Source: Galerina marginata
Taxonomy: Eukaryota > Basidiomycota > Agaricomycetes > Agaricales > Galerinaceae
Assembly (NCBI GenBank): GCA_023014335.1
Contig: JAECYW010000002.1
Coordinates: 3,534,001-3,598,000, forward strand
Length of the DNA stretch: 64,000 bases
Direction of reading: 5' to 3'
Positions 8,937-47,722 of this stretch are shown in pieces. The notes beneath the pieces are model-generated. The model saw nothing but the letters and a program-made list of their open reading frames with translations, was not told the DNA's origin and made no database searches. The translations under genes and the position numbers were made by a program. Position 1 is the stretch's first letter. Each line of letters opens with the position of its first letter.

Positions 8937-8978
8937 CTTGTTTAGAGGCCATTGCTTCGCATGGCAAAAACGAGTTCT
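8937..8978 (+). other. 5' terminus of giant element B
   Basis: CTTGTTTAGAGG, then a stem-loop (GCCAT..ATGGC), then AAAAACGAGTTCTT. ACGAGTTCTT is the reverse complement of the 3' hairpin arm at the other end (AAGAACTCGT). Short elements have the same layout with ACAAGTTCTT. Confidence 0.8.
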
Positions 8979-9139
8979 TTTTCTTTGCTGCTTCTTATCT
9001 ATAATAGTACACTTGTTACAAATATCCTTTTAACTGTTTGAATTAAACTACATTAGTTAGAAAAAAGCTAATTAGCAATTAAACTAAATTACTCTACAAA
9101 CTACCAGTATATTATCAGCTCTGTATAATTATTATCAAT

Positions 9140-12100
9140 TCATACTCCATATATAACAACCACTGCTTCTTTCTTTTTGCACTTAAATAATAAATCTCCT
9201 TCAAAATCATCTAACTGTCCTTGTTTTATACATTGAGCACCAGTAAGAATACCATCATGGTACCAGATTTCATTATTAACTATAAATCTTGATGTAAAAT
9301 GATTGCTTCCACTATATATAATACCTTTCAATGATAATCTAGTTATACTCTTGTCTTGGTTTTCAATTTTAATATATTTACTTATAATCTTTTTAACCTC
9401 CAAACTAAAACATATAAAACTTGGTGAAATAGTAAAATATCTTGTGATACAAACTTTTTTAGTACATAGTCCACAATATTTCTTTTGGTTTTGCCAGTGT
9501 TTAAAGTTTGACTGAGTAGATTTATGTGAAGAACATGTAATAAATATCAAAGATTGAGATTGAATTTGAGAACTTGCTTCATAATTACAATCACTGCACT
9601 TTTCATAACTGATATCTTTCTGATTAGGTTTTTGGAACATTGATTGTAAAAGATCACGGATATCAGTTCCTGTATGCCCTATAGGGAATTTATCTGGTTG
9701 AGATGTTTTTAATTCATGTCTAACCAAATCTCTAACTGCAGATAATGTTTGAGATCCAGTTTGAACATTTTTATATCCCTTTACCAAAGTTTGTGTAAAT
9801 TCTCCATATTGACTAAGCTCTTTGGTCCATTGTTTTTTGTTTTGAGACCATAAATTGAACAATATTGTAAATAATGAGTCATAAGAACAGCTATAATTGA
9901 CTGAATCCCATTTTAAGCCTTGAAGTTCAATATCATAAGTAATTTTGGGTTTTTTGATCTTAATTATTTTCTTAGCCTCTAATGGAACTATAGGTATTTC
10001 AGTATCCTCTATTTTTCTCTTTAAATTGTTTACTTTAACTGGGATTGAACCTTTGGCAGGCTGAAAATGTTGTGCAACAAAAGTTTTAGCTTTTGAGACC
10101 ACAGGCTTCTTATTGATAATAGTCCATGGACTATCTTTAACAGCTGCTGTATTTTCCATTGGCTTTTCTTTAGACCATTGTAGTGCTTTATCTATACAAG
10201 GTGGACAATAACCTGTGCCTTTGATTTGTTGATACTGTCTTATTATAATATTTCTAAGATTTCCAGTAATTGAAGTAGGAAGTTGATCAAGATATTTGAG
10301 TCTAGTAATCTCATCTAATAACTCAAGTTCTCTGAATTCTTGTCTTAGATAACCAGATATACCACATGTAATTTTATGATCATCAAAGCCTTGAAGAATA
10401 ATTGTGCCTTCTGCAGTTGAACCTCTAGATAATGCAGTGTAATAAGCCATATGACTGCGACAACTATTCAAATTTACAACATTGTATTCTCTTGTTTTTC
10501 CTTGTGAAGCATAATCAGTCATTGCAAAATTTGGAAGCACAGAAACTTGAGATCTATTAATTGAAATAGGGGATTTTAAACCTGAACAAAGAACACTCTT
10601 ACTAGAGCGAGTTAAAGGAACAACATTTTGAGGAAGACCTTTGAGTTGAATTGTCTTAGCTGGTGAATCAAGTTTGACAAATAAAACATCAAGAACCAAA
10701 TGATTTTCAGCACCTTTTGAAGCTTGCCAGCCTACAACATGAGCTTCTTGACCACGTGTGATACATAATTCTGTAGCATCATTATTGCGGATCATAACTG
10801 GCATTCCAAAACATAAAGACAATTTTCCAGGAACAGTTTCAGTCATTGAATATCTCATATTCCATAGAATATTTTGAAGTTTTGAAGGAAGAGAGACTTG
10901 TTTTTTTCTGATTGTTTTAGCCTGAGGATTTTTTCTCTTTAAAAGTCTAAGTGTTTCAGGTGGAACACTTTCACCAATAGTATCCACAGAATAAAAATCA
11001 GTTAGAGTCTGACCAGTGTCTTTTGCAAACCTCTGACATCCCAGATCATTGATTTTATCCTTTTCAGAATTTAAACCTAGAATGATTGAGACATTGCGGA
11101 ATAATGAACTAGCAATATTGGGCTGATCCTTTCTTTTTCCAGCTATTCTTGTTCTGAGAAACTGAATATCAGAAGCTGTACAGGCTGCGTAGCGCATATT
11201 TTCTAAAGCAGTGCGAAGTTTAGTATCTGCAGGAGATTGAAATCTTTGTCTCATGTTTTGTCGCAAAATCACAACTGTAGTTATCTGATGCCATAAAGCT
11301 TTGCCTATTGCAGTTTGCTGGCCAGGTTCTGTCATAGCAGCATTAATTGTAGTACCAACTCCTCCACTGTAAAGAGAAGCACCTTTAACAGGTGCTAATT
11401 GAGCAAAATCTCCAGCAAAAATCATATTCATACCACCAAATGGATTATCAACAACATTTTTAAGTTTAGCAAGCTGAGCACTGATTTTATAAAGATCAAG
11501 ACATGATAACATTGAAACTTCATCAAGAAAAATATATTCAACACCTTCAAGTCTAGTATAAACCTGAGCTAAATTGGTTTGTTCATTTTTTTTCATTGCC
11601 TCAGTTTGAATACCTAGAGCTGAATGATATGTAGATCCTTTGAGTAAAGCAGCTGCTGAACCAGTAGGAGCCAGAATCATGATGCGATGTTTTTCTTTTC
11701 TTAGTTCAAAAAAAGCAATTAAAGCCTTAATAACCTGAGATTTACCAGTTCCACCCATTCCACCTAGATACATTTTAAGAGGTTCAGTTTTATGAAGGGT
11801 TGCATGATTAGCCACAATGCGGAATGCACGCTCTTGTTCTGTATTTAAACTAAATTTACTAACAGTATCATCAATGAATTTCTGTTCATTCAATTTTTCA
11901 GCCTGGAAATCCTTATTAATATATGATATATCTGATACTACAACTTCATCATGAGACTCATGGTTATCAGTAGATTTATTAATACCTGATGGCAGATCCT
12001 TCATTCTTTGAGCAATGACATCTTTTTTAGCAGCATCAACTATAGAATTCCATTCACTGCTATTGAAATTCTCAGTAGGTTTAAAAGTGCTATCAGGTTT

Positions 12101-12352
12101 TATAGTATTGTCTTTGGAGCTATCCAGCCAGCCTATATTTTGAACTACTTTTTCAATCTGAGCCATTTCTTCAGTTTTAGCTGCATCATTTATAAGAAGT
12201 TCAGACATGTCTTGTTCATTATCAAAAGATGCTAGTGGACCATCATCAGTATAGTCCAATGCTGTCTGATCTAGTTCATTAAGAGTTTGTTCACTATCAA
12301 TCCAAGATCCAAATATACTATTCTTTTGAGCTGCACCTTTTTTCAATTTAGC
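9140..12352 (-). CDS. Helitron RepHel, C-terminal half: PIF1-like helicase plus USP-like peptidase (split gene)
   Basis: About 1070 codons on the minus strand. PIF1/RecD-like superfamily 1B helicase: Walker A GGMGGTGKSQ near residue 193, Walker B YIFLDEVSM, an arginine motif QNMRQR, and the late motif TDYASQGKTRE with YYTALSRG. Such helicases unwind the element during rolling-circle transposition. From about residue 800 comes a second domain with a cysteine-box motif (NYSCSYDSLFTIL), two CxxC pairs (KCSDC, CGLC) and a histidine-box motif (GSNHFTSRF..WYHDG); this pattern fits a USP-type ubiquitin hydrolase fold with zinc finger. The open frame starts at TTG, not ATG, and reads continuously up to the target-site copy beside the inverted-repeat element at 12361. 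It is therefore the 3' half of a larger gene whose 5' half is at 16437-21058. The joined protein would be ~2600 residues with no intron seen. Confidence 0.9.
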   Translation of the reverse strand, partial: AKLKKGAAQKNSIFGSWIDSEQTLNELDQTALDYTDDGPLASFDNEQDMSELLINDAAKTEEMAQIEKVVQNIGWLDSSKDNTIKPDSTFKPTENFNSSEWNSIVDAAKKDVIAQRMKDLPSGINKSTDNHESHDEVVVSDISYINKDFQAEKLNEQKFIDDTVSKFSLNTEQERAFRIVANHATLHKTEPLKMYLGGMGGTGKSQVIKALIAFFELRKEKHRIMILAPTGSAAALLKGSTYHSALGIQTEAMKKNEQTNLAQVYTRLEGVEYIFLDEVSMLSCLDLYKISAQLAKLKNVVDNPFGGMNMIFAGDFAQLAPVKGASLYSGGVGTTINAAMTEPGQQTAIGKALWHQITTVVILRQNMRQRFQSPADTKLRTALENMRYAACTASDIQFLRTRIAGKRKDQPNIASSLFRNVSIILGLNSEKDKINDLGCQRFAKDTGQTLTDFYSVDTIGESVPPETLRLLKRKNPQAKTIRKKQVSLPSKLQNILWNMRYSMTETVPGKLSLCFGMPVMIRNNDATELCITRGQEAHVVGWQASKGAENHLVLDVLFVKLDSPAKTIQLKGLPQNVVPLTRSSKSVLCSGLKSPISINRSQVSVLPNFAMTDYASQGKTREYNVVNLNSCRSHMAYYTALSRGSTAEGTIILQGFDDHKITCGISGYLRQEFRELELLDEITRLKYLDQLPTSITGNLRNIIIRQYQQIKGTGYCPPCIDKALQWSKEKPMENTAAVKDSPWTIINKKPVVSKAKTFVAQHFQPAKGSIPVKVNNLKRKIEDTEIPIVPLEAKKIIKIKKPKITYDIELQGLKWDSVNYSCSYDSLFTILFNLWSQNKKQWTKELSQYGEFTQTLVKGYKNVQTGSQTLSAVRDLVRHELKTSQPDKFPIGHTGTDIRDLLQSMFQKPNQKDISYEKCSDCNYEASSQIQSQSLIFITCSSHKSTQSNFKHWQNQKKYCGLCTKKVCITRYFTISPSFICFSLEVKKIISKYIKIENQDKSITRLSLKGIIYSGSNHFTSRFIVNNEIWYHDGILTGAQCIKQGQLDDFEGDLLFKCKKKEAVVVIYGV

Positions 12353-13739
12353 AGAGTAATCACTTCAGTGACCCCCCAGACCTAACCTCTTAGGTTGATT
12401 AATTCCTGATAGGAAATACAATCTAAAGGAAGGCTGAAAACATTTCTGAAAACAATTTTTTCCAAGAATAATCTTCAGATTTTTAAAATGTTTTTTAGGG
12501 TTTAGTATAATGTTTCTTTGACAGGTGGTGGCAAGGGTCTCTTGTGGAAAATTTTTTCTAATAATAAACATTTTTCAAAAAATAATTTTTATAGAAAACA
12601 AAAATCAAATGTTTTCTGTGACGGCTTGGCAAAGTTTTGTATTTCAGAAATATATTCTGGTGGCAGGGGTCCTCCAAATTTAAAAAATTCCTGTGGCTTT
12701 TCCAGGATAGCTATAAATATACTGTAATGACCTTTCTTTAGGCACAGGTCTACCTGACCTAACACACAAGAAGCAATCTAAATCAAAGCAAATAATATAT
12801 ATATTTCTATATATAAAAGCTATAGAATTTTTTGTGATTATAGTCTATACTAGCATTTATATCAATAAATACCATCTTGTAGATCTGAATTTTTTGGATT
12901 TTCCAATATTTAAATAATTGCAAGCAAGTAAAAACTAAGCTCATTATAATCTAATAACATTTTCAAAGACTTGTATTGAGAAATAGATTTTTTCTTATAA
13001 ATAAGCATTAAATTATAATACAGATAAGTATTAAAAGAAACAATAGCTTATACCTATTATATTTAGATCTAAACTTCAAAATCTTATTTTAGAAGTATTC
13101 TATTTTTAGACATTGAAAATATTTTTGATGTTTCTATTTTTAGAGCAGGTCTATTTTTAGAAGTGTGTCTATTTTTACACTATAGCCTTAAAACATTTTG
13201 GAATCATTTCTATTTTTAGCTGACCCTGAATTTCCCAATTAGGAACTATTTCCATTTATGGTCATATCAGCTATTTTTAGAACCAATCTTGTTTTGCTTA
13301 TATCTCAGTCAGAAAAGTGAATATTGATATGATTTAAATTGTAAAAAGGTTTAAAAATATATTACTTTCTTTTGAGATACTCTTTCCTTTTTGGGAAAAT
13401 TTCCCATCTGCCAAATCTGATTTCAAGAAGCCTGATAACGATTTTGATGCAGCTTATATCTCAATAAGGAAAGAAGATATAGTTATGATTTAAACAGATT
13501 TAGAATCGCTCTGATGAGTAGTACAACTTTTGTTACTAGCACAGCCACATCTGATCACTTTTGGAAATTACTTCTATTTAAAGCATTGATTGATCAATTT
13601 AACATCTAAAGCTTTAATATAGCTGTTCAAACACTATAAAGTCTAATTATGTCACATGTCACATGACTATCTATTTTTAGATATGACTGTGTATTTAAAA
13701 CTTGAATTACAGCTATATTTAGAATAATGAGCATGGTAG

Positions 13740-15027
13740 ATCAGTGTCTGAGTGGCACTTCACAATATTGCAGCACAGAGCAAGCCGCATATGCTGCCAA
13801 GATTAGGATATTTGCATGCAGAAGTAAAACACTCAGAAAATCTTGTTGGGAAAGAATCCTCTCCTTGGTTCACTCACAAACTCAAAGTTCTCTTAATAAG
13901 TTGGAGGATTGGCGATCTTTAAAAAGCCAAAAGACTTTGCTGCTCGTTACATGAGACCAAGTCCTCTGACAAGCAGCACGTAAAAAAACCGCCAAAGCTC
14001 CTCAAAACACAGATGTAGAAGTAACCTGCAACCCCACTGGCCATTAACTGAAGAATACCAAAAACTCAGAAACATTAATGAGTACAATAGGCAGCTGAAG
14101 CCACTGGTTTTGTTCATGTCAAGACATGCCTCTTGTGGTACTAGCATCACTCAACTTACAGTAGAAACAAGGCTGCTACAAGCTGCAACTTGGCTACAAC
14201 AAAAAATGTGAGACTGTTCATTCTGCTATCCAGTATGCAATCTAACTTTTGAACCTCTCATAACTGATCCACTATGTTGCAATATGCCAGTTGTCTAGTT
14301 ATACTCAATAACATGTCATGCACCACAAAATAAGTAATCGTTCTATTGACTATGTCTTGTCTGAACACAGTCACACAGTACTTCAGCAGCTACATTTATT
14401 AGATTAGCTTTAGCTGTTTTCACAGATTTAATTTCACTTTACTCTTTGGTAATGGTCAAACAACCCAGAGGCAGCTCTAGCTGACTTGGTATATTGACAG
14501 TCAGCTGTCTGGCATGTGGACTTACACAGCTTGTCCTAGGTCTTCCAGGTCCCATCCTGACATGATGCCCTTTTCAGATGCCAAGAAGGACAATGTGACC
14601 ATAACTTTATAATGTGAGAGCACAGGGGTAGTGTTATCCAAGCCCTTCGGCTGGCTTTTCGGCAGGGACATAGTCTACCTTCCTATTACAACAGCTTATA
14701 CAGTGACTTTGAGGGGCATTAAATAAATCACATAGTGTCTAAAGTATTTTAACTATGTAACTGGCTGGATTCAAACTCATGTTTTTATCTGCCTAAGGCT
14801 TTAGAGTGATGGTGCCACCTAAGCCACCACAGCTCCTATCTGACATAAGTTTGTTATACATGTGTCAAACTTGGGTGGTCTAACATTTGCTTTCAGTTGT
14901 AATATAGATTACATGATCTAGATACTCACTATTGATAATGTCAGCTGAGTCTAAATCTGCATAGATCTATGTGACATGTGACATAGTTAGACTTTGAGAG
15001 TGAGCTTTGCCAGATATTGACCTTACC
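13740..15027. other. Unique centre of the foldback element
   Basis: No convincing gene; only short frames. It holds a tRNA-like segment on the minus strand (14763-14836) and fragments I could not identify. Confidence 0.5.
14763..14836 (-). repeat. tRNA-derived (SINE-like) head
   Basis: On the minus strand, a box A-like TGGCTTAGGTGG (14815-14826) and a box B-like GAGTTTGAATCC (14767-14778) lie ~40 bp apart, as in RNA polymerase III promoters of tRNA genes and SINEs. The segment starts GGAGCTGTGG. A full tRNA cloverleaf is not evident, so a SINE head is more likely than a tRNA gene. The body would continue to about 14560. Confidence 0.45.
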
Positions 15028-16436
15028 ATGCTTATTGTTCTAAATATAGCTGTAATTCAAGTTTTAAATACACAGTCATATCTAAAAATAGATAATCATG
15101 TGACATGTGATATAATTAGACTTTTAAGTATTTGAACGGCTATATCAAAGCATATTCAATATGTTTGAAGTGCTTTAGATGCTAAATTGATCAATTGATG
15201 CTTTAAATAAAAGCAATTTCCAAAAGTGATCAGATGTGGCTGTGCTAGTAACAAAAGTTGTACTACTCATCAGGGCAATTCTAAATCTGTTTAAATTATA
15301 ACTGTATCTTTTTTTCTTGTTAAGATATAAGCTCCATCAAAATCATTATCAGGCTTCTTGAAATCAGATTTGGCAGATGGGAAAATTTCCCAAAAAGGAA
15401 AGAGTATCTCAAAAGAAAGTAATATATTTTTAAACCTTTTTACAATTTAAATCATATCAATATTTGCTTTCCTGACTGAGATATAAGCAAAACAAGATTG
15501 GTTCTAAAAATAGCTGATATGACCATAAATGGAAATAGTTCCTAATTGGGAAATTCAGGGTCAGCTAAAAATAGAAATGATTCCAAAATGTTTTAAAGCT
15601 ATAGTGTAAAAATAGACACACTTCTAAAAATAGACCTGCTCTAAAAATAGAAACATCAAAAATATTTTCAGTCTAAAAATAGAAATACTTCTAAAATAAG
15701 ATCTCAGGGTTTAGATTTAAATATAGTAGGTATAAGCTTAATACAATAGATATAAGCTATTGTTTCTTTTAATACTTATCTGTATTATAATTTAATGCTT
15801 ATTTACAAGAAAAAATCTATTTCTCAATACAAGTCTTTGAAAATGTTATTAGATTATAATGAGCTTAGTTTTTACTTGCTTGCAATTATTTAGATATTAG
15901 AAAATGCAAAAAATTCAAATCTACAAGATGGTATTTATTGATATAAATGCTAGTATAGGCTATAATCAAAAAAATGCTATAGCTTTTATATATAAATATA
16001 TATTATTTGCTTTGATTTAGATTGCTTCTTGTGTGTTGGGTCAGGTAGACCTGTGCCTAAAGAAATGTCATTACAGCATATTTATAGCTATTCTAGAAAA
16101 GCCACAGGAATTTTTTTAATTTGGAGGACCCCTGCCACCAGAATATATTTCTGAAATACAAAACTTTGCCAAGACGTCACAAAAAACATTTGATTTTGTT
16201 TTCTATAAAATTTATTTTTTGAAGAATATTTATTATTAGAAAACGTTTTCCATAAAAGACCCCTGCCACCACCTGTCAAAGAAACATTATACTAAACCCT
16301 AAAAAACATTTTAAAAATCTGAAGATTATTCTTGGAAAAAATTGTTTTCAGAAATGTTTTCAGCCTTCCTTTAGATTGTATTTCCTATCAGGAATTAATC
16401 AACCTAAGAGGTTAGATCCGGGGGGTCACTGAAGTG

Positions 16437-19400
16437 GAGTAATCATCTCTGGCATCATTGCATTCATATCTTAAATTGAAATTCTTCATCAACTGGTTTT
16501 GATGTTTAGCAAATTTGAAAGCATTAAAAGCTTCATCCCAGGTTTGATTTTCAAGCTTAAGATCTCTTCCAGTTCTCCATGGTTTAAAAAGTGTTAACAT
16601 TGTTGAACAATAATATTCTCTATCACCTTGATCACTTCTAGGAAGAATGCCACCTAAAAACACTGGAACTACTAAGGGATCATTGGTTTTATAAACTACC
16701 TCATGTGTTCTATACAAAGGATGACCAGGTAAGAAGTTATACTTTATATTAAGACTTGTTTCAGCAGGTTTATTGATAGTACTATTTTGAATATTTAATT
16801 CATCATCTGACTGGCTGGATTTGCCACCACCAACTTGTGAAATAATATCTAGCTCATCATTTGAATCCAGTTCCTCATTTAATTCTTCTTCTTCAATATT
16901 ATCAAGCTGTCCATTAAGAATATCTTGCAAGGAGTCAAATTTTTTCAAGTTCTTTTTTGAGCGTCTTGTAGTTTCTGATCTTCGAATCCATTCATATAAA
17001 GTGATATTTTTGTGTATGTTTGGGCGATAAATATAATCATCAACTTTAGAAAGACCAACATAGTCTCCAAGATTCTTATCAAGAACAACTTTTTCTGGAC
17101 TTTCTTCTTTATCATTATCACCCCATGCATCTCTGACTTTGCGGACATAGAGTCTCCAGTAAAACTTTATAAATTTGTGCTGAGTATAATGATCTGGATT
17201 TCCTAATAGATATAAAGATGCCATTGGACTTCCTATTTCCATTTTAGATGTAAGTGAGTTGACCATTTTAGTCATTAAAGCTCTAGCAGTTTCTTGGCGA
17301 CTACTGCTACCACCTAGTAACTCTGAATTTTTAGAGAATATTTGGCGCACTGTATCAAAAATTGAATAAGTTGTAAGACCTGGTTTAGTAACATAATCTG
17401 TAACATAAGCAACAACAGCTTTGACTGAAGTTCCAGACAAAAGACTTGTTACATCTGTATTTGCTCTAATAAGATAAGACAGAGCTGGTGTAAATGTATT
17501 CATCCAACTTTCACCTTTTTTCAATTTTAGAGCACCTGTAAGAGGTTCAACCATTGTATTCTCAACAATATCTCTAGGAAATCTTGCTTTACATTCACCT
17601 TTGCTATTTTTGCAGCCTTTTCTTACAGATCTACCATCTTTGGTTTCAATATCAGTTCTACAGTCATGTCTATTAGATCTTGCAAGTATATCATTGGTCT
17701 CTTCTTCAAATTTAACCCACCATTCATTTAATTCCTTGCATTTGGAACAATCTGTACAATTTTTTGATTTACATAATTCAGGTGGAGGTTTTGGCATTGT
17801 TTTTGTTGGATCTGAGTAACCAGTCTGTTCTTGCTTAGATTTGAAAGATGCAAGGATATCAGCTAATGGCTTTTCATTTAACAATTCACCTTGATGAACA
17901 CTTTCCAGATATTCTACCATTTGTTTTTGAAAGTCAGAAGTAGTATCCATAATGCGATCTCTGATCTCCTGAGGTGAAAGTGAATTTTTAATCCATAATA
18001 GCAGATGTAGATGCAAAGTTAGACGACCTTGTTGTTCAACTGTTCCATAATAAGCATTTGTTTTACCATACAAGCCTGGAGAGTTATTGCCAACACCCAA
18101 TACATGTTTAATAAAGGTTTCACACATAAAATGAAAGAATCTTGCAGCTGCCACAGGATTTTGAGCAACAAGGCGGTAAGCTTCATCAGGCAGGCAAATC
18201 TCAGGTTTGAACTCAATATCCTTATCAGCAAAATAAAGACAGATTGGATGTTTACTATCTGCAGGAGAAAGTGTAATAAACCAAGAAGGAGCACCTATAT
18301 AGGAAATCAAAGACCATATTTCATTGCGCATAGACTTTTTACCTGCTAAAGAACCTTCAACATGACCTCCAATTGTATCCAAGTCTTGTATGACTTTATA
18401 GCATAGTTTTTCCTCTTCAGTTTCAGGTTTTACACGCTCACCAAGAGAAAGGCGCTTGCTAATATTAGATAGCACTGAATGATTAAGGTTTAATAGGCGA
18501 TTAGCCATTTCTGAAAAATAAGATCTTTGTACTACTAATCTTCCTCGACTTGTACTTTGAGAAATCTGTTCATGATTAAATGCAATCAAAGGAAAATTGG
18601 GATCAGTTTGAAACCTTTTATCATGATACATTAACAGATGTCTTTTCTGGACCAAAGGTGAATGGATTTTGTTCATTATTGATTGACCTATACCACCATG
18701 ACCATATGGAAAAAGCCATGGAAGCATAGAAGGAAACAACTGAGGATTTTTAAATATTGAGCAAGGTTTTTCAGAATGGCCAGCAAATAAAATTTTTCCA
18801 TTGCTCATAAGATGTTCCAAAGCTTTAGCCTTTATAGTATCAATAGAAAGCTCTGAAAACTCTTGTCCTGTAAGACCTTGAACAGTAAATGAGCAAGGAC
18901 CTGATTCTACACCATCTTCTTCTTCATTATCATGTACACTAGTGGCTTCTGGATCTTTATTTATAATAGACTCTCTATAATCAATAACAACAGGACAGTC
19001 ACTTTCAGGATATTGCATTAAGTTGTCTTTTGAGATACCAACATCAGAATAATCAGCATGATTTAATTTAAGCCAGTTTAAAGCATTAGCTACATGGTTG
19101 CGACGGACAAGTAAAGGAGTGCGTTTAATATCATCTTTGGTGGGTCTGCAAGGTCCAGTAAATATAAATGCAAGAACTTCATCAAGCTCTTTTACTGGAG
19201 GTGGTAAAACATCATATATTTTTGGGACTGGATTTTGAAAGGTAATAGCATTGGCTCTCATTTTATATCTGCCTGATGCTACTTTGACTATGCATCTATT
19301 GTGTCTTACACGTGCAATTAAAAGCTTTTCAACATAAGTCAGATTTTTAAGCACATCTGGTACTTCACCAATCCAAAAACCTGAAGCTAAAGCAAATAAG

Positions 19401-21058
19401 GGTATTTTGTTTTTCTTCAAACTAGCACAACAGGTTTTACATGCATGAGTACATTTTGAATCAATAATTGGACCAGTAATATCAGAAATAGGATCTTCAG
19501 GAGTTTTTCTTTCTTTGCGAGTAATACCTGGGTTTATTAATACCTTTAGTCTATTTTTTATTTCACTTAAGGGTATTAGATTTCTAAATGGTGTTAATCT
19601 TCCACAAACTGCACAGCCTGCTTCTACAAATTGAGAAGGACTTGTATCTTGTATAAAGCCTGAAATTATTTTATAAAGTAGACTTTTAGATGGTGGCTGA
19701 GGAGGAAAAGTTTTATTTCTTTCTTCAGACTCAGATATATCTTTTTGTTTCTTTAGGTTATTTTGGGCCGCTTTATTGTGGATATGATTTGCTTTTTTAA
19801 CTTTATTAAGCTTGTTATACCAAGTAGTTTGACGTTCAGCAGGTGTTGCAGGTGTTAATATAGCTGGTGCAAGGGAAAAAATAGTACAAAAGCCAGCACA
19901 GTTACCAACACACTGATGAGAAGATAGTACATTCATTAAAGCTGGTAAAGAATGTGTACTTATTTTACAAATATCATGACATTTTGCAATAGTGCGGGCT
20001 TGTTTTAGAGTAATCTTATCACATAATAGCTCCAAAGGTACACGCACTAAAAGAATGTCATTCTTATTCCTATATTTGTCCAAAGCTTCCTTAAATACCA
20101 TATGACCACTATATTTTAAATTTGTATTATCTATGCAGATTGAGGAATTTTGAAAAAGAATATATTTTGAAATAGAAGCATATGTTAGAGTTTTTTTAGG
20201 ACCAGCCCCAAAGAAAGAAGAGTTATCAGGTTGAAGAATACAATTACTTCCATCCCACTTATGTGCTATTGAACATTTTAATTGGTTTATAAAGTGTTTA
20301 GAACAAGAATTAGTGATACAAAAATTAGATAAAGGCTGCTGATAATTATACCACCACTGCATAGATACTTTCTCTTCATGTAGATAAGGCATGGGAATTC
20401 TAGCCAAAACAAAAGTCTGAATAGCAGAAGATACTAATATTGGAGATACATCGTAAGTAAACAAAGCCAGCTGATGCAGGGCCAACTGAGAAGATTTAAT
20501 GTTAAGCCTCATAAAATTTGAATATTCATGTTTCAATAGAAGGTTTCTGATAAGTTGTAAATACACTCTATGCACCTGATAAAAGATATCAGTGTCTAAT
20601 GAAGCCATATATACATAGTAAAACAGCTTGTTTAAAGAACAGCTAGTTAAATAAATATATTCTACAAAAGCCTCAAACATATGTTGAGTGCATGGTTTAA
20701 ATTTGCTAACTAAGTCATGACTATTGATGCTAGATATAGTCCTATGAAAGGTCTTAGTGGTAAATATATCAGATATATATTGAAGTCTAGTGCCAGAGAT
20801 ATGGGGTGTAGGTTGAATACTAATGTCAGAGGTATCAAAAGTATGCTGAATGCTAATGCCAATGCCAAGAATGCCAGATAAGTTTTGAATATCATAAGTG
20901 TCAGCTTTGAAGGTCAAAAAAGTCAGATTTGAGGCTTCAAAGTGTATTAAAGGTATACCTAAAGCAAAGCTTTGAAAGGATTGAGATAGAGAGCTGAATT
21001 GATTGAGCTTTCTTGGTATAAGTATAAAGAAGACTAGGAAGACAAGAAGCAATCTCAT
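16437..21058 (-). CDS. Helitron RepHel, N-terminal half: HUH replication initiator (split gene)
   Basis: About 1541 residues of genuine gene sequence on the minus strand; the frame then runs seven codons into the foldback element before a stop. N-terminal ~480 residues not recognised. Then come cysteine-rich segments (AGCAVCG; CTHACKTCC) and the region LPPPVKELDEVLAFIFTG, typical of fungal Helitron proteins. Next is a Helitron N-terminal type region (LPWLFPYGHGG, LLMYHDKRF). The HUH motif is seen as LHLHLLLWI near residue 1016, and the two-tyrosine motif as AYVTDYVTK near residue 1217. These catalytic residues nick and rejoin the element ends. ATG at 21058 opens a hydrophobic N-terminus; I see no better start. 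The gene end lies at the target duplication (..DDYS), and the helicase half resumes at 12352. Confidence 0.9.
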
Positions 21059-24192: not shown

Positions 24193-24225
<33 letters not shown>

Positions 24226-25922: not shown

Positions 25923-26040
25923 TTTCAAGAAAAGAAGCAAGAGTTGTAAAGGGAAGTTGAGGTTGAGGTTGAGATTGACAGTAGGAGACTAAAAGAAATC
26001 AACTTCAACATGCGTCTTAGGTCAGGCATGTGGCTGTGCT

Positions 26041-26078: not shown

Positions 26079-26299
26079 AGACGCTACTCTTAGGGTTAGG
26101 GCTCAGTCTTGACTGTGCTCAAGCGCAGGCAACTAGGGCATATAATTATAAGCACATATATTTTAAACATTTTATCATACTTCTAGTTGTCTAAGTTAAT
26201 CCTATATCATATTTCCATATGCCAGTACCTATTGCAGTCTTATATTAATAAAGTACACTACAACTGTACTTATTGTATTCTAATAACTACATTAATTGA

Positions 26300-31834: not shown

Positions 31835-33350
31835 CACAGGGCTGTTGAAACCAGCCGCGGGAGTTGGGAAGCCGGAGGCGAGAGCTGGGAGGTGGGAAGT
31901 TGGCGAAGTTAGGCACTAGAACACTGAGTCTGCTGCCATTGCATGGACGGCGGCCTCGACTATTCCAGTCGCAGCTGTGGTTTGTACATGATGACTAGGG
32001 CATACTCGCAGCCCTGGTCAGACGAGCGCCGTCGCAAGACCCCTCTGCCTTGCCTTGCGTCGCCTCACTTCGCGTCGCCTTGCCTCCCCTTGTCTCTTGC
32101 TTCACCTCGCCTCTCGCCTCTCATCTCCATCTCGCGTCGCCTCTGACCATCGCCTCTCATCTACATCTACACGTCGCATCGCCTCGCGTCGCCTCTCATA
32201 TCGCGTCACCTCACCTCGCGTTGGCGCATCAGGAGACTCCTCACATCTCCCATCCCGTAAGCTCTTTGGCTTTCATTTGTTGTTTGAACTCTTTTTGATG
32301 TAATTTTTGTTTTGCAGTCAAGCCTCTGGAAGATATCCCGCCTGCATATTCGTTTGCCACCGCCGTTACCGGTGCCTCTACCCTGCCAGCACCAGACGAA
32401 ATTGAACGCGTCATCAGCCCAAGTGAAGACGGGTTATTTGCAGGGGGACAGATATGGCCTCAAGGCGTGCCCGACGCCTTCGACGATTCTTCACCCCACC
32501 GCCCCCCTTCTCCCACCTCCTTCCACCTCCCTCGCGTCCGTCGATGACGCCCAAGGCCGTCGATGGTTTTTGTAGCCACCAAGCCACCATGCCCGTGAAC
32601 AAACACGTTGCCCTGGGACCTGCTCCCACCTCCACGCCTCTCAAACGGCGTTGAGCACCGTCGACGTCAAGATGTCGACCACCACGAAGCAAGGACGAGG
32701 AGGAGAGGGCGAGTGTCAGGTATGTGGCCAACCACCACCCATGCACACAACTAACCACCACTGTCTTCACCCCTCTCCCCCCACAGAACCCGTCTCCTCA
32801 CAGACAACTGCCCTCCTCTGCATCGCATTTGAATAACGGCATGCCTCCGCTCTGCCCTATCCAACGGCATCGAGCTTGGACAACGGTTCCCGCGCCTTGT
32901 TCGCTCTGCCACATCGACTGGCGGCGAGTGCTGGGAATGCCGCCCCGCTCCTCTCCTCTGCCATGTCGCTGACGTCTGTCCCTCTGCTCTGCAATGTCGT
33001 CTGACATTTGCCGTAACCCCTCTGCTCTTCTTCACGGCATGGCATTCGCCCCGGCTCTGGCGTTCACCCGGCCTCTGGCATTCACCCGCCCGCCTCTACC
33101 TCCTCCTCATACGCTGTGGTCATCACTTCCGCCACCAATTCTGCCTCTCACCTCATCCCTCATCTCGCGTTGTGTCGCCTCTCACCTCCACCTTGCCTCA
33201 CCTTGCCTACCTTGCCTCTCACCTTCATCTCACCTCACCTTGCTTACCTCACCTCCACCTTGCCTCACCTTCCCTCTTACCTCACGTCGACTCACGCGTC
33301 GCTATCATGTCGCCTCTCACCTGAGCTCACCTCTCATCTTGTGTTTAACA
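31835..33350. other. GC-rich block, right part, with CCTCGC/CCTCACC-rich low complexity
   Basis: C-rich pyrimidine text with irregular CCTCGC, CGTCGCCT and CCTCACCTT repeats (densest at 32050-32225 and 33160-33330). A plausible intron GTAAGC..TTTTGCAG lies at about 32259-32317 and another GTATGT..CCACAG at about 32719-32786. Translated exons between them were not recognised. Composition returns to AT-rich at about 33350. Confidence 0.5.
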
Positions 33351-33411
33351 TTTTAGCTGGACTTTAGTACTTTATTATCTTATCACATCTTGTATTGTTT
33401 GATTGGTAAAT

Positions 33412-33420
33412 TATATATAA
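33412..33420 (+). promoter_or_regulatory. TATA-like box of the TET-like gene
   Basis: TATATATAAGG, about 138 bp before the ATG at 33558. Spacing to the start codon is plausible for a fungal promoter. Confidence 0.4.
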
Positions 33421-33557
33421 GGTCCTTCCTTATGTTACTAAGGTTTGAAGCTGTAAGTTTAATTTTTACCGCCTTCAAGTGAGATCTAACAACTTGTGAC
33501 GGTATGGTCCTGTCTTGTCACATCTAGCTATTAATCTTCTTGTTATCAACCTTCATC

Positions 33558-36500: not shown

Positions 36501-36669
36501 ACAGAAGCTTAGACAAAGAGATCAAGGTGGTGATGGTGGAGGTGATAGGCCACCCAGAGTCTCCAACGGCGACCATAGAACGGAAACCAAGAAAAACAAT
36601 ATAGCTGCTCGAAAGTATCAGAAAGTTCGGGTCTGTCATCAAGAAATCTATAACTACTGGAATGAGTAG
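33558..36669 (+). CDS. TET/JBP-like 2-oxoglutarate/Fe(II) oxygenase, 12 exons, intact copy B
   Basis: Start ATG at 33558 (MSSHTPVLLP). Exons: 33558-33722, 33779-33949, 33999-34397, 34451-34573, 34621-34812, 34861-35064, 35118-35309, 35357-35512, 35564-35716, 35766-36020, 36079-36350, 36402-36669. All joins are in frame and give ~849 residues. Exon 3 holds an acidic stretch and a basic nuclear-type signal (PPRKRQKQPRK). The C-terminal third has the double-stranded beta-helix signature of the oxygenase family expanded in mushrooms: NNYTAPLHKDND (HxD iron ligands), then about fifty residues later GSTMHGTMLP (distal His), with an Arg soon after. Family members of TET/JBP type oxidise methylated bases; here the assignment rests on motifs only. 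A generic 2OG oxygenase is the alternative. The C-terminal tail is basic and glycine-rich. Confidence 0.65.
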
Positions 36670-36789
36670 AATTACCTGATTGAATACTGCGATTAAACTG
36701 TTAGGTATTTGCTTACAATATAAAAAATGTTATTCAATTTATAGTTGCAAGCAAAATGAACATATAGCTTGGACAGTACTTTTAAAGCT

Positions 36790-38139: not shown

Positions 38140-39216
38140 ATGGCAGACTCTGCAGTTGCTTCTACCTCTCATCCTGCTATTACCTGGAATCCAGCAAATT
38201 CCATTCAATTCTCTCTTGTAAATGACTTGTCCCTTTCTGTTCTTCCTTCCCAGGCTATACTACATATCGACCCTCTTATCGTCAATGCTCTTTTTGGTCA
38301 ACAGAAGCAAAAATCCCAGAACAGAAGTCATAATATCCAAACCATCTCTTTTGATACAAATATGGAACCTTTCGGTCACACTATGATCTGGTCTATGTTT
38401 GAAAAGGTCAAGCACAACCTTAAATTTCAAGATCCACACGGATATATAGCCACTGTGAAAAAGCTTGCAACTAGTATTCTTCATCATTATCCTGCACTTG
38501 TCTGGGAAAACAAGAAAAAAGAAAGTTTGGAAACTCTATTTTGGTGGGTTTTAAGATATCTATCTATCTATATACTATTAATATTGCCTCACAGGTGCAT
38601 CACCGCCTACAGTTTGATTATTAATCCAGCAGCCATAGTGCATCTTAAGGTCAAACCTCTTGGCCATGCTAAACAAAAAGGTTTTGCAATTTATGCCAAC
38701 AAGGACATTGTACAAGGAGAATACATCGAAGAACTTCTTGGTTTAATGCCAGAGGATCGTGCTGAAAAATACACTGATCTCTCCACAATCACTCCTCATG
38801 AAAACAACCGCAATGATGGCTCCTTTGAAGAAAAACTCTTGATTGGACCTATTAGGTTCATTAACCATCGCTGTGTTTCTTATAATGTTGAGGTGAGTTT
38901 CAATTCTTGTTTACAGGTATTTAATATTAATAAATCTGGATAGTTTATTGCTATTCGAAACACATATGCTTTTACCATTATGGCAACAAAGAATATCAAA
39001 GCCAAGGAAGAAATCTTGCTTTGCTATGGGGTTGACTACTTCAAGGAGAATGGAGCTGAATGCTTATGTGAAGATTGCAGGGAAATACCAGATGAGGAGG
39101 AGGAGGCAGAAGTATCTAAGAAGGGAGAAGGTCAGATTAACATTGAGGAGAGAGACAAAGCCAAAAAGAACAAAAGAGCAAAACAAAAAGAGAATCGCAA
39201 GCTGGGACCAAATTAA
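38140..39216 (+). CDS. SET-domain protein methyltransferase, intact copy B
   Basis: Exons 38140-38543, 38595-38892 and 38944-39216 give ~324 residues. The N-terminal ~165 residues are not recognised. The SET domain follows: KQKGFAIYANKDI (start of SET), RFINHRCVSYNVE (variant of the canonical RFxNHSCxPN, with Arg for Ser), and KEEILLCYGVDYF (E..YG). A post-SET cysteine cluster CLCEDC follows, then a highly charged Lys/Glu tail likely to act as a nuclear signal. SET enzymes transfer methyl groups from S-adenosylmethionine to lysine, usually in histones; the target here is unknown. It lies between the TET-like gene and the divergent acidic-protein gene, in the cargo of element B. Intron 1 (51 nt, stop-free) could be retained. 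Confidence 0.88.
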
Positions 39217-39475: not shown

Positions 39476-41999
39476 TCAATGAAGCTCTGATAACCTTTGT
39501 CTCAACATATCAAACAAGGGATCATCATGCCACATAGATCGAGGGAAGTCATAGATCCTTCTACCTGATAAAACCCTATTAATTAATATGTTTTTTAAAA
39601 GTATAAAGGTCATTGCACTTACGCCTTTGGTGTTGCCAAAACCACAGCCCAACAGATGTTGGTTCCAATCGTAAGCTCATCCGGGGACTTCTGCGAGTTA
39701 TAACCCAAAGTGGTGTATCCAACAAGAGTCAAAGATCCAGTTGGAATATCTCCTGGAAAGACAGGAAGAGTTTCGGCAACCTTGCGTAGACCTTTTGGAA
39801 GATCAATCTGAAGAGATCTCCCATCCAAGATAGGAACTGGTTATAAAAAAGTTAATATCTTTAAAAACAAGATATCAATGAAAAACTCACTGGTCTCATC
39901 ACAGGTATATCCCAGCTTCCACTTTGAATTTTTGAATTGAGCCTGCTGTGCATTGGCAGGACTCAACTTCTTGGTGCCCATAGGACGAGAAGGACCGGCG
40001 CGGCCATATGAATCTATTAGCAACATTATTGAGATGAATAAATGATTAAAGTCAAATAAACATACTTTGAGCTTTATTATTGGAGCTTCCGGGGCGGGAT
40101 GAAAAAGACCAGCGATTGTTGGACATCAGGGTTTTGATACCAGGTACCTTGTAAACCAAGCAGAGAGTGGCAACCAATCTTTCATATTCCATAGTCTGAA
40201 TTACGCCCGTTAGAATCTTGTACGATGAACCGTTAATATCCTTGGCATGACGAGTGTAGTCTTCATCAACACATATAAGACTGAGACAGAGAGCCGGAGT
40301 TTTCTGGTTTCGTAAAGTGATCAAAGGATAGATGGATCCAGTGTCCGGTTTTTTGGCGATAAGGTCACAAGGTTCAATCCTGGACAAGTTGACGGTGCTC
40401 GTGCCTGTGTCCGAAACAAAAGTGAACAAATCCAGCAAGTACCTATCAGAATAAAGTTAAAACAGAATATCAAAATAGAATAGAACGGTTTACTTCTTGC
40501 TAGTCTTTGTCAAATTTGGCAGCAGTTCTGAGACATACATCATAGGCTCCGGTGCTTCACCTGCAGGAAGATATCGATTGTTGGTGTATCCACTGAAATA
40601 TTGTTAGTCAATTAGCTATAGGCAGTAAATAAATAGATAGATACCTAGGCAATTTGGGAAGATCCTTGTAAGTTTTGGCGAGGAAGACATCAACCAAGTC
40701 TTTATCATAAATCTGGCATTTCCGTAACTTGGGACGACTGTATATATATAGTATCAGGCAATAAAATTGATTAATCGACAGAAATGCATACCTTTCAAGA
40801 GGATCTTTAGTGATCAAATCCTCCAGATAAACACCAGTATCTTTCAAATCATCTTTTCTCTTAGCAAAAGATTTTTCTTCTTTTGATTTAGCCTCCTTTG
40901 CCTTTTTTCTATAAGCCAGAAAAAGTCAATAAAGTAAACATATTAAAAATAAGGAACATACATGGCAGTGTTGAGAATTTTTTGACGTTGAGGATTGTTA
41001 CTAAAAAAACTGGATTAAATAATATTCTGAAGAAAATACACCATACACACCTAGTCTTAGCCTTTCCTTTGGACTTACTCAAAGGAAGCTCATCATCCTC
41101 TGAGCTATTATCCTCCTCCCTAAGAAAAGGAAAACAGAAAAGGGAAATTAGCTTAAAGTCAAAAAGAAAAAAAAAAAAAAACATACGCTTCATCATCTAT
41201 GAAATTAGCATCAGAATCTTGTTCGTCATCTTCCTCCTCTTCATCTTCTGCCTCTTCTTCATCTTCTGCTTCCTCTTCATCTTCCTCTGCAACTTCAGCA
41301 TCATCACTATCAAAAACCTCCTCTTCACTGATGATATCAGATTCTGATTCAGTCTCTTCCTTAATCGCCTTGGTAGTCTTTTTCTTTGTTTGAATCAAAA
41401 CAATAGGCGATTTGAGTTTCAAATTTTTGGCAGAAGACTTCATTGTAGGAGTGTTGGGAGGCTTTGACTGTGAAGTATGACGAGGTTTTTTTGGTGACTT
41501 CTGTTCAGGACTAAAATAGCCTTTAATATAAAGGTTCATAAAAATGAAAACCAAAATACCTTGGAGTAAATGCAGCAGTGTCGATGTTTTTCTTCTTAGA
41601 CTTGGAGCTGATTAATAAAGTAATTAATAAAAGAGGCAAAATATGTGAACTAACTACTCACAGGCTTCCTGCAGTTGCTTGAGGAGGCCCTACTCTCTGA
41701 GACCTTCTCGGAGTAACCCTAGAAAACGGTATTAGTGTCATAATATCTTAACATGGATAAAGAAGCAAAAAAGCACGGAGGTGGGGGCTGATCCGATCTG
41801 CAATGAAAGTTTAGCTTCAAAAAAGTAAAATACAACAAGCAGAACATACAAAGAGGCAGCATCAGAGGTTTCATTTTCACTCGCACTATAATAATACCAA
41901 TAACTTTCAGCATATATCAAAGAAGAACAGATAATTCAATATCTACCTGTGATTTTCCTCTGAAGAGGAGTCTTGTTTGACTTTTCTTTTAGGTGGCAT
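39476..41999 (-). CDS. Acidic, lysine-rich nuclear-type protein, multi-exon, copy B
   Basis: Minus-strand gene starting MPPKRKVKQDSSSEENH and ending RRIYDFPRSMWHDDPLFDML..LSELH. The first third is disordered: a basic start, a proline stretch (SDQPPPPVTPRRSQR), SKSKKKN, then a long Glu/Asp run (EEDEEEAEDEEEAEDEEEE). A structured part follows, with exons reading SIYPLITLRNQKTPALCLSL, YERLVATLCLVYKVPGIKTL and TLVGYTTLGYNSQKSPDELT. I do not recognise this domain. The charge pattern resembles chromatin proteins or histone chaperones, which is only an impression. It is divergent from the gene at 42659 across ~660 bp. A second copy of high identity is at 48558-51093. About ten introns of 45-60 nt; exon limits were not all fixed. 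Confidence 0.7.
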
Positions 42000-44283: not shown

Positions 44284-46257
44284 ATGGCCAAAAGTCAAAC
44301 CAAAAAGCAAGCCACTCATGCTGGTGGGTTATATTTGAATTCAAAATTGTTATAAAGCTAATCTTTTAAATAATAGAAACACCTTACCGTCGTCGCTCTG
44401 CTAGAATTCACAAGGCCTCCACAGCTACCAATCAAGTGGATACGGCAAACAACTCTGGTGTTCCGATTATAGGTATGTCTAGAGTCTATGACTATGTCAA
44501 TAATATTGACTCAATACTTTTCATACAGAGGCCAACAACTCTGGTGTTTCGATTATAGGTATGTCTAGAGTTTATGACTATGTTAATAATATTGACTCAA
44601 TACTTTTCATACAGAGGCCAATAATACTGTAATAGAAGATACAAATAGTAAGTAATCAAACTTATATATAACTTTATAACTTACTGATTAAAATTAACCA
44701 TAGTGTCTGAAGAACTTGAGTATCCTCTGGAAGAGGATGCTAGAGAGCTCCATCTAGAACGCTTCATTTCCAATAATCTTCCACTAGGAAAGTTCAATTG
44801 CGATGCTCTCAAGTTGTTGTGGAAAGGCACAGTTCAATCTATTGTCAACCAATCCATGAAAAATGAAGAATCTCGTCGTCATGCCATTTGTGTGGTTCGC
44901 CAAGCTGCAGCTTGTCTCGACATTAACTTGGGCGCAACTATACCAATTCCTGTTGGTGAAGACAGGGCAACCAAGAGACCTAACATCTTCGAGGTCAACA
45001 GTAGTATCCCTCACCTATCAGACGAACTCAAACACGCATCAAAAACTCTCTGGGACAGATGGGGAAACTCCAAAAATCTTGTTGATTTGGTTGCTTTAGC
45101 AGAAGAAGAAATTCTACAAGCAGATGTTCAGGCTTTTATCTTGATTCTCGCCAAATCTGTTGGAATCCTAAGCAGCAATACCAGTAAGCTTGTGTTATTA
45201 TTTATCTGGCTATTGATATCTGATTATATGAACAGTCAACCAAGTAACATATGCTGTTCAGCACAGCAAAACATTCTTTCTTCCAGCTGCCATTCAGAAC
45301 AAAATACTCGACAATCTCTCTGCATATGATCGCCAATCTTTTGCTGAAACCAGCAAAAGTCATCTTTTTTGTTTAAACCGGTATAACTGCAACTTGATTG
45401 GATCCATGCTAGAGGATTTTGGATTCACTCTGGATATTTTCATGTCAGCTCTGGCAGACTGTCAGGCCATCATCACTGGATCCTTTGCTCTTCAGCCCCT
45501 CCTTCCAAAAGACCAGCGCTTCAACTCCAATAATCTCGATATCGTCATGTCTACCCACGCAGTCCGACTCTTCCAAACCAAAATCCTCCATGGCTACACT
45601 CTCTATATCCCTGACACCAGATTCCATTCATATAATCCTGTCATCTGCGACCGCATCATCTTTTCCCACAAGAACACAAGACACACAATCCGGATTCTCA
45701 TCATCAAAAATGGACATTCACCTTTGGAATCAATTTTCTACGAGCCAACCACCGCGATGATGAATGCAATCACTCCAAAAGGTCTATTCTCTGCCTACCC
45801 TGCTCTTCTTCACTTCCGCATCTCTCTAAACAACCCATGGATGGCCTTTGACCAAAACCGCAACAATCCCTACCTTGGAAGGCATGAAGCTGAAGAAATC
45901 TCGACCAACTTGCAAAGGAAATATGCCAATAGGGGATTCATCACTGCTTGCGATCTTCATAATATTGAAATGGGTGGGAATACCATGGCACTTGAGCATC
46001 GATGCCGCATTGATCCAGTCTGTCCACTGACTCCTCGAGTTATTGGAGATCGCGGATGTATTCTTTGGCCTTTCCTCAAATGCCAAATTGTTCCAGCAAC
46101 AGGTGATATGGGTTATGTTATGCCTGGCATCAATTTCAACCACATACGACCGCGACTCGATACTATATACTGGACAGTTGGAGCTGGAGTATGTGGAGCA
46201 CCACAAGCAGGGAGGCCATCTGGATTTGTAAGTTATCAGCGTAATTTTTATAACTAA
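44284..46257 (+). CDS. F-box-like protein with nucleotidyltransferase-like segment, intact copy B
   Basis: Starts MAKSQTKKQATHA (44284-44323), followed by small exons at about 44377-44472, 44529-44558, 44614-44649 and then 44702-45181 and 45236-46257; about 560 residues. Exons two to four encode near-repeats (ANNSGVPII / ANNSGVSII / ANNTVIE) from duplication of an exon plus its intron. The middle has an F-box-like motif (LPAAIQNKILDNLSAYDRQSFAETSKSH). It then has ITGSFALQPLLP..NSNNLDIVMS, which resembles the G-S and D-x-x motifs of nucleotidyltransferase folds, with only one clear acidic residue. The C-terminus (HRCRIDPVCPLTPRVIGDRGCI..; YWTVGAGVCG) is unrecognised but strongly conserved in copy C. 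F-box proteins usually link substrates to an SCF ubiquitin ligase. It is the last gene before the element's 3' end. Confidence 0.65.
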
Positions 46258-46790: not shown

Positions 46791-46818
46791 AGAAATCTGA
46801 GGTATAATTGTCTGTGCT

Positions 46819-47086
46819 AACCCTAAGAGGACCGACGCGTCGGTCCTCTTAGGGTTAGCACAGCCACAATCAAAAAAAAAAAAATTGGCTTGTGATGCTA
46901 ACCCTAAGAGGACCGACGCGTCGGTCCTCTTAGGGTTAGCACAGCCACAATAAAAAAAAAAAATTTGGCTTGTTATCAATATTCAACCTCAGACTTATAC
47001 TTAAAAAGCATTTCTGAGGTTTAAAAATTTAGGTGTGTTTTTGGTTCTAACCCTAAGAGGACCGACGCGTCGGTCCTCTTAGGGTT
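46819..47086. repeat. Three perfect 38-bp palindromes before the 3' end of element B
   Basis: At 46819-46856, 46900-46937 and 47049-47086. Same core as at 36790. Each is followed by AGCACAGCCACAA and an A-rich tract. At 46819 the flanks extend the palindrome to ~52 bp. Confidence 0.95.
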
Positions 47087-47089
47087 AGC

Positions 47090-47590
47090 ACAGCCACAAC
47101 ACAAAAAAAATTTATTTGGCTTGTTATCAATATTCAACCTCAGACTTGTATTTAAAAGGCATTTTCAATGCTTAAAGTTTTTGATGTGTTCATTTTTAGC
47201 ATGTCAATTCTCCTGAGATTGATTTCAAACCAACGGTAAACAGAAGTATTACATTGAAGGATATAGAAAGTACTAGGAGAAGTTGAACAAGACTTACAAC
47301 GAGTATTATTTATTACTGGAATGCATCTAGAAGTATATAAATAGATATACAACTGACATGAACCATGTTTGGTGACTGTTTAGTCATATAAGCTATATAT
47401 AAACCTTAGCAACCAGAGCAAGAGCCTGTAAAGGACTGCAAAGTAAAAGAAGTGATATTTAATCACGTTACTGACAAAACCTAACCTTAGTTTAGGTGTC
47501 CAGGAACAAAAGCTAAAAATAGACCATAGCAACGGACATCAGACAACCATTTCCATGGTCAATAATGATTTTGACACTATTAGAAAAGTT
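47090..47590 (+). other. Non-coding tail of element B
   Basis: No gene recognised. Collinear with 57860-58380 in element A at high identity. It contains a duplicated TTGGCTTGTTATCAATATTC block with 46967 onward. Confidence 0.5.
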
Positions 47591-47722
47591 TGTAGACTTT
47601 TAATTCAGGGTCGCTCACAAAAAATGAAGCAGTGGGAGAATTTCGAACCATCGCGTTAGGAATCAAATCCTTCTGCTATCGAGTGTAGAAAACGAGTTCT
47701 TTTACTACGTAAGAACTCGTAA
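47591..47722 (+). other. 3' terminus of giant element B
   Basis: Ends in GCAGTGGGAGAATTTC.. then a hairpin with arms ACGAGTTCTT/AAGAACTCGT and final AA. The same ~130 bp closes element A (to 58504). The next base, 47723, is the A of the interrupted SET codon. Confidence 0.85.

Follow-up and report, generated by a model that had tools for sequence, protein, structure and literature searches.

A 38.8-kb Helitron-like element of Galerina marginata from a giant, cargo-carrying family, inserted in the SET gene of another family copy

The described element nearest to the one reported here, a giant Helitron-like element in a 64,000-nucleotide stretch of the Galerina marginata genome (assembly GCA_023014335.1, contig JAECYW010000002.1, C12:3534001-3598000; hereafter the window), is proto-Helentron-Pi of Phytophthora infestans (PMC4067079). 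According to the accessible part of that paper, proto-Helentron-Pi is ~14 kb long, ends in 3' CTAG, and inserts between A and T. Its other described characteristics, namely a 5' TT, a Rep/helicase without endonuclease, the absence of target duplication, a paralogous empty site, and a SET gene together with hypothetical proteins, are shared by the family to which the window element belongs, whereas that family differs in its length (31-57 kb), its 3' CAAG before T, its five or more cargo regions, its near-identical copies, and its fungal host. FoHeli1 and FoHeli2, Helitron2 elements of Fusarium oxysporum, resemble it in having an asymmetric terminal inverted repeat, whose 3' copy lies ~20-40 bp inside the element, and hairpins at both ends, but they are ~6 and ~5 kb long, and the available portion of their description found no important gene-capture role (PMC5148889). 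The TET+ Helitron2 of Agaricus bisporus, as excerpted from its report (PMC12730594), is likewise a Helitron2-type agaric element with a gene for a putative DNA-modifying enzyme; by contrast, gene T of the window element (see below) was not recognized as TET/JBP by Pfam, a Tet_JBP search, or profile comparison. HELPO1 and HELPO2 of Pleurotus ostreatus are also basidiomycete Helitrons with one Rep-helicase (RepHel) open reading frame (ORF), and HELPO1 has extra genes, but in the text available they reach 13.7 kb (HELPO1), have mostly canonical ends, insert at AT, and hold one to four captured genes of a different nature (PMC4289320).

The sections consulted of a 2019 review give Helitron sizes of 6-7 to 14 kb in fungi and up to 39 kb in maize, and term full-length gene capture by Helitrons exceptionally rare (PMC6431247). 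Being larger than the P. infestans proto-Helentron, HELPO1, and the 14 kb of the review for fungi, the Galerina family is therefore a giant variant of a known Helitron kind, with recurrent cargo. No comparable giant Helitron was found among the titles and abstracts listed in searches of a literature collection that excludes most subscription journals and preprints. Giant cargo-bearing units in fungi are also represented by the Starship transposons of Ascomycota. Starships are tyrosine-recombinase elements with target duplication; the family described here has an HUH/PIF1 RepHel, and its gapless joins show no target duplication.

We consider it very probable that positions 8937-47722 of the window (38,786 bp) are a copy of a family of giant (30.7-57 kb) Helitron-like elements whose excision exactly restores the SET gene of another copy, and which likely moves by RepHel-driven rolling-circle copying. 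The insertion and its target comprise the following features.

8937..47722, minus strand: giant Helitron-like element, with its 5' end at 47722 and its 3' end at 8937; exact SET rejoining, same ends at other flanks
8027..8936, plus strand: 5' part of SET copy A (the target)
47723..47889, plus strand: 3' part of SET copy A (the target)
47723..58504, plus strand: remainder of the host copy (same family), closing with this family's terminal sequence at 58504; corresponds to 39050-47722 plus extra short elements

A preliminary description of the window had proposed that SET copy A halts at 8936, restarts at 47723, and is rejoined exactly when the interval is removed, with 0 bases gained or lost. 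This was borne out: the joined flanks show 7 mismatches and no gap in a 300-bp alignment with SET copy B (38900-39199), and they also align with five further uninterrupted SET copies of the same genome at 97.7-98.3% identity, two of which, on C6, have 3 gap bases. The uninterrupted SET copy at 38140-39216 used for the original comparison does match the joined flanks, but it lies inside the element as cargo. Because the comparison copy is the element's own cargo, the insertion was into another family copy; the window element landed inside a copy of its own family.

The genome (69.3 Mb, 43 contigs, given here by C-numbers) was searched for both termini, which revealed further insertions with identical ends, differing flanks, and uninterrupted target sites. 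The 8937-type end was found at least 28 times (best 40 of 549 candidates, a lower bound); in all 28 ends read, a host A precedes the element start CTTGTTTAGAGG, and the 40-bp flanks all differ from each other. The 35-bp 47722 end has 65 exact genomic copies, compared with 0 for a backward-read control. Each of the 26 exact or near-exact 47722-type ends that were read runs ...CTCGTAA and is then followed by differing sequence; one of them continues into a second such end in inverted orientation. Besides the window element, five whole copies were read, one of which lies on the same contig.

C12:3447087-3479975: second copy, C12a, 32,889 bp

The others are C6d (33,332 bp), C6e (33,330 bp), C42b (37,509 bp), and C42c (39,401 bp). 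Copies free of large later insertions are ~33 kb long. C6d and C6e differ by 0 mismatches and 2 gap bases over 33.3 kb and have different flanks, and C12a is 99.86-99.94% identical to the window copy in three blocks; of these two, the window copy alone contains a 4.07-kb insertion at 12363-16436 and a short tandem array at 30022-31836. The proposal that the interval is a whole giant element of rolling-circle type, delimited at either end and by a filled-site comparison, is thus supported and now extends to many copies, and the interior did not turn out to be ordinary chromosomal genes devoid of these termini, as the other copies keep both interior and ends while their flanks differ.

Uninterrupted counterparts of the insertion sites were sought for 14 joined flank pairs and found for 10, of which 6 are strong (about 96-100%) and 4 weaker; a fifteenth complete copy (C4:1141335-1178552) lies outside these 14 joins. 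The window join has counterparts at 6 places. The C12a join has 7 matches over the full 360 bp at 95-98%, the target appearing Copia-like by eye. The join on C1 has 12 counterparts over 359-360 bp at 91-100%, one of them 100% identical over 360 bp, and that of C4:1220823-1262358, situated inside gene J of other copies, has six at 99-100%, two being 100% identical over 300 bp. For the C39 join there are 3 counterparts at 100% over 300 bp, and for the C23 join one at 96% over 249 bp, gapless. The weaker cases are C6e, where the site lies within satellite, a 57-kb C42 copy (88%, one gap), C42c (80% over query 17-331, net gap), and C42b (75% over 359 bp). The window and C4:1220823 copies both sit in genes carried by other family copies. 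Joins without gap or net gap for the window, C12a, C1, C4, C39, and C23 copies show no target site duplication.

To relate ends to genes, each 8937-end was paired with the nearest exact 47722-end on the same strand within 130 kb, and one row per locus was used for the order of the genes (26 of 46 Rep rows, 24 of 149 T rows, and 26 of 77 SET rows). This pairing succeeded for 22 of the 28 8937-ends, and Rep, T, and SET lie in the same order between the ends in 19 of these 22 pairs. The opposite-strand control at the same 130-kb limit gave 9 of 14 in order; as long spans enclose neighboring copies, this control is too loose, and a distance of 25-60 kb was therefore used instead. At that distance, 17 of 28 8937-ends have a same-strand 47722-end downstream, compared with 6 upstream on the same strand, 4 downstream on the opposite strand, and 9 upstream on the opposite strand. 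This count omitted 12 of the 65 47722-ends (those on C21 and C41, where no 8937-end occurs, and five distant ones on C40), all of them more than 60 kb away from any 8937-end. Complete ordered units shorter than 60 kb (30.7-57.2 kb) start at 15 of the 28 8937-ends; the family has at least 15 end-to-end copies with the transposition gene and the same cargo order.

The 28 8937-ends are distributed over 13 contigs and span no more than 251 kb on each of the seven contigs that have at least two; none of 20,000 random placements brought them as close together. The intervals that hold the 65 exact 47722-ends, on 15 of 43 contigs, measure no more than 413 kb each and together amount to 2.39 Mb. One interval per copy-bearing contig suggests, from position, that these may be pericentromeres. 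Two pairs of giant copies are inverted with their 3' ends facing each other, 19-26 kb apart (C6:1792274-1825609 with C6:1851243-1884573, and C42:1711289-1750698 with C42:1770063-1807572). At C40:2737861-2818555, four 47722-type ends (2737861, 2758023, 2798391, and 2818555) are spaced by ~20.17 kb or double that distance, which suggests a tandem array of a 20-kb unit.

The orientation of the element follows RepHel, which lies on the minus strand and stops ~200 bp from 8937. In this orientation the element begins with TTACGAGTTCTTACGTAGTAAAAGAACTCGT (TTACGAG...), which forms the 5' hairpin, and has the form TTACGAG...AACAAG. Its terminal features are as follows.

8936..8936, plus strand: target base A, which is T on the strand of the element; all 28 copies read have this A
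8948..8965, minus strand: 3' hairpin of sequence GCCATGCGAAGCAATGGC, recognized from sequence and fold; 11 nt separate it from the 3' terminus (...CTCTAAACAAG)
8970..8979, plus strand: 3' counterpart of the 5' ACGAGTTCTT repeat, inverted and asymmetrically placed 33 nt from the 3' terminus
47692..47720, minus strand: 5' hairpin; the inverted repeat in its 5' copy, ACGAGTTCTT, forms the 5' arm of this hairpin and lies 2 nt from the 5' terminus

On the element strand, the host base on the 3' side is T in 28 of 28 cases, and that on the 5' side is A in 13, T in 9, G in 4, and C in 0 of 26. The HUH/Y2 Rep and PIF1-type helicase of RepHel are those of the Helitron superfamily. The 5'-TC...CTRR-3' ends and insertion between A and T that define Helitron1 are absent, while the asymmetric terminal inverted repeat and the hairpins at both ends that define Helitron2 are present; this asymmetric layout is the one described for Helitron2 and Helentrons in the accessible parts of two reports (PMC5148889, PMC4067079). 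Of the Helentron characteristics, a C-terminal AP-type endonuclease was not detected in Pfam scans of both RepHel halves and the last 474 amino acids, and insertion is not within TT, the 5' host base being mixed. The element agrees with the P. infestans proto-Helentron in its Rep/helicase without endonuclease, 5' TT, and SET gene, but not in the 3' CTAG and A/T insertion, for which it has 3' CAAG and N/T insertion. From the ends and domain content, we infer that the ends are probably of the Helitron2/proto-Helentron type and not of the Helitron1 type.

Two repeats were noted in connection with these termini. Positions 1-5891 of the window hold a head-to-tail array with an 844-bp period and ~7 copies, 100% identical in self-comparison, whose units each end ...ACTTGTAA, like the end of the giant element; this array looks like a rolling-circle or recombination concatemer. 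At 46815-47190, ~0.5-0.9 kb inside the 5' end of the element, are palindromic repeats CTAACCCTAAGAGGACCGACGCGTCGGTCCTCTTAGGGTTAG with telomere-like CCCTAA.

The transposition gene occupies the 3' part of the element.

16437..21058, minus strand: N-terminal half of RepHel, with DUF6570 and Helitron_like_N, HUH motif HLH, and Y2 motif YVTDYVTK (motifs read in C12a)
12363..16436, unstranded: 4.07-kb insertion splitting RepHel, bounded by terminal inverted repeats of ~1.4 kb and flanked by the 9-bp repeat GAGTAATCA
9140..12362, minus strand: C-terminal half of RepHel, with the PIF1 helicase, Walker A GGMGGTGKS (motif read in C12a)

RepHel is a single ORF in C12a and the C6 pair (2,629 and 2,626 codons from stop to stop; 2,611 amino acids from the ATG used in C12a) and is uninterrupted in three of the five other whole copies. 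The Pfam domains are DUF6570, Helitron_like_N (PF14214, E 8e-35), and PIF1 (PF05970, E 1.1e-25). The 4.07-kb insertion, which we take to be Mutator-like, is missing at this site in C12a, C6d, C6e, C42b, and C42c, although the RepHel genes of C42b and C42c bear other large insertions. With its RepHel broken, the window copy would need the protein from another copy. The ratio of nonsynonymous to synonymous substitution rates (dN/dS) of RepHel is 0.14-0.21 among C12a, C6d, and C42b, compared with 0.75-2.14 for shifted frames. A cysteine-protease-like C-terminus, suspected on account of the available part of another report (PMC9741609), gave no significant match in Pfam and PDB searches. Sister RepHels with 70-71% nucleotide identity are present at eight places. 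The two that were read have ORFs of 2,663 and 2,564 amino acids and related 3' ends; a search for the 5' ends of these two elements did not find them, and none of the SET and T matches listed is situated within ~10 kb of the eight places.

The remainder of the element includes the cargo.

21506..26000 (limits approximate), minus strand: cargo region J, multi-exon, exons 22490-23029 and 23033-23365; dN/dS 0.06-0.09
26081..33430, unstranded: variable module rich in guanine and cytosine (GC), GC 0.576 without the tandem array; largely different in the C6 and C42 copies
30022..31836, unstranded: short non-autonomous element repeated in tandem with a 724-bp period, its ends being CTTG...GTAA; inserted after A
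33500..36700 (limits approximate), plus strand: cargo gene T, multi-exon, exon stretches 33999-34404, 35763-36017, and 36079-36345; dN/dS 0-0.08
38140..39216, plus strand: cargo SET gene, copy B, 3 exons, 318-amino acid program model
41162..41554, minus strand: acidic/lysine-rich cargo ORF; dN/dS 0.15-0.19 (limits 0.02-0.59)
44703..46257, plus strand: two cargo ORFs (208 and 287 amino acids), no Pfam match; pooled dN/dS 0.13-0.25

These features modify the preliminary description in several respects. Both termini are indeed repeated in the genome, and short window elements bear related ends, but the 5' and 3' assignments had been swapped; the Rep/HUH and PIF1 portions are both present, not as two proteins but as halves of a single RepHel; and the number of six cargo genes is about right, in that several cargo regions exist, though the gene models are only approximate.

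For the cargo, dN/dS was compared among the same three copies, using only exon stretches open in the reference copy. Pooled over 1,878-1,883 codons it is 0.12-0.18 (bootstrap limits 0.07-0.25), compared with 1.24-2.98 in shifted frames. A short ORF at 25.3 kb gave 0.10-0.46 with wide limits, and the acidic and low-complexity ORFs contain indels. The SET identity of the cargo gene is certain (Pfam SET PF00856, E 7e-10 on the hand-spliced model of copy B). SET and T also occur together where RepHel is 97-98% identical but SET only 63-79% (C4:1249 kb, C34:2475 kb, and C23:2291 kb); the SET module therefore appears, from these comparisons, to diverge or to undergo exchange more quickly than RepHel. 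On C13, a solitary SET relative with 30-39% identity is a candidate for the host-side origin of the cargo SET. Directly upstream of both SET copies (37583-38082 and 7542-7969) lies a 31-bp minisatellite (TGCGCAGCCATTAAAGCTATG...) that could be promoter-proximal. At the position of the 724-bp-period array, C12a shows a clean empty site; the array likely arrived after the window copy and C12a separated.

The protein of gene T has 11 matches, nine from Galerina marginata (up to 92% identity) and two from Laccaria bicolor, and all four matches of the gene J protein are from Galerina marginata. An HxD...H pattern seen by eye had made gene T a TET/JBP candidate. This was not supported: Pfam searches with its exons, a hand-spliced piece, and 7 of the 11 homologues gave no relevant match, searches of PDB started from one homologue and from a profile yielded nothing significant, none of 18 genomic Tet_JBP matches coincides with a T gene, and comparison with the Tet_JBP profile (hhalign) gave a probability of 0.04-0.4%. 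The AlphaFold2 model (predicted local distance difference test, pLDDT, 38.5) was too poor for use. Likewise, a motif in gene J noted by eye (HID..G.GT...) was suggestive of JmjC, and this assignment was not supported either; Pfam searches with the four homologues gave no match, the four PDB matches of the profile, all KDM2A/JHDM1A, are not significant (E 0.53-1.3), and the structure model is unusable (pLDDT 33.1). Elsewhere, at C23:2791967-2870203 and outside the giant-element interval, five Tet_JBP matches ~19.5 kb apart, above the family cut-off only together with their in-frame neighbors, suggest that a different unit bearing a Tet_JBP-domain gene is tandemly repeated there.

A number of observations weigh against a single transposing unit with selected cargo. 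Thirteen of the 28 8937-ends lack a complete unit shorter than 60 kb: six have no exact 47722-end within 130 kb, three are paired but lack T and SET, and four pairs span 72-101 kb, sharing an end with another pair or containing extra material. A genome-wide search with the C34:2450533-2485488 join found no uninterrupted counterpart (best 40 of 114 candidates), its right half matching many repeats from 2 bases before the junction and its left half only itself, and C6d and two C14 joins had no counterpart among the family loci compared, a comparison that was not genome-wide. The 5'-side host base differs from the T expected of Helentrons, and rolling-circle movement, though likely, is read from the protein family and the ends. 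It is extremely improbable that the 33-kb block instead owes its spread to segmental duplication or to ectopic recombination within repeat-rich regions, with Helitron-like ends merely at its borders. Duplication would be plausible given narrow intervals, one per contig, with nested repeats, and would suit the C34 join, but identity halts at the same base in all 28 and 26 ends read while the flanks differ, and the exact uninterrupted targets of several insertions speak strongly against it. A very improbable alternative has the ends coming from two separate mobile units that adjoin by chance, of which one is a RepHel element and the other is non-autonomous and carries the cargo. The excess of 47722-type ends (65 exact) over 8937-ends (at least 28), the three 8937-ends followed by a 47722-end without T or SET between, and again the C34 join would fit such a pair; set against them are the order of 8937-end, Rep, T, SET, and 47722-end in 15 of 28 cases under 60 kb, the exact joins across the whole unit for several copies, and the absence of any lone-half insertion with an internal end in the five whole copies read.

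Further points concern the cargo, which might be passively captured host DNA heading for decay, as in most gene-capturing Helitrons. SET alone has dN/dS values of 0.47, 0.34, and 0.11, the first two with intervals that include 1, and is thus not clearly constrained in two of three comparisons; one T exon of C42b contains a stop; a low-complexity ORF (24064-24423), excluded from the pool, has a dN/dS of 0.46-0.68; and full-length gene acquisition by Helitrons is, in the review sections cited above, exceptionally rare (PMC6431247). Passive capture is nevertheless unlikely, given the low pooled cargo dN/dS, with shifted frames above 1.2, and the persistence of SET and T together even where SET is only 63-79% identical.

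Under our preferred explanation, that of a giant Helitron-like family moving as whole units, the HUH/Y2 nuclease would nick at the TTACGAG 5' end and the helicase would displace one strand. The end would be signaled by the 3' hairpin GCCATGCGAAGCAATGGC, which lies 11 nt short of the ...AACAAG terminus, and the strand would be joined in front of a T without target duplication. Because the cargo evolves like RepHel, we propose that it (SET and at least four other gene regions) may be kept for its benefit to the element itself, perhaps via chromatin, a role at which SET hints. A broader and rather doubtful possibility is that the family is a basidiomycete counterpart of Starships: a rolling-circle transposon with a stable, selected set of chromatin genes over 30-57 kb, which would keep it active in centromere-like heterochromatin, where it would land repeatedly in its own copies and give one self-nested cluster per chromosome.

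In this genome, a 33-kb unit recurs nearly unchanged at different sites with a constrained multi-gene cargo. The family makes it testable how much DNA a rolling-circle transposase moves at once and whether transposon-borne chromatin genes aid the transposon, and its near-identical copies, exact empty sites, and uninterrupted RepHel provide a natural system for both questions.

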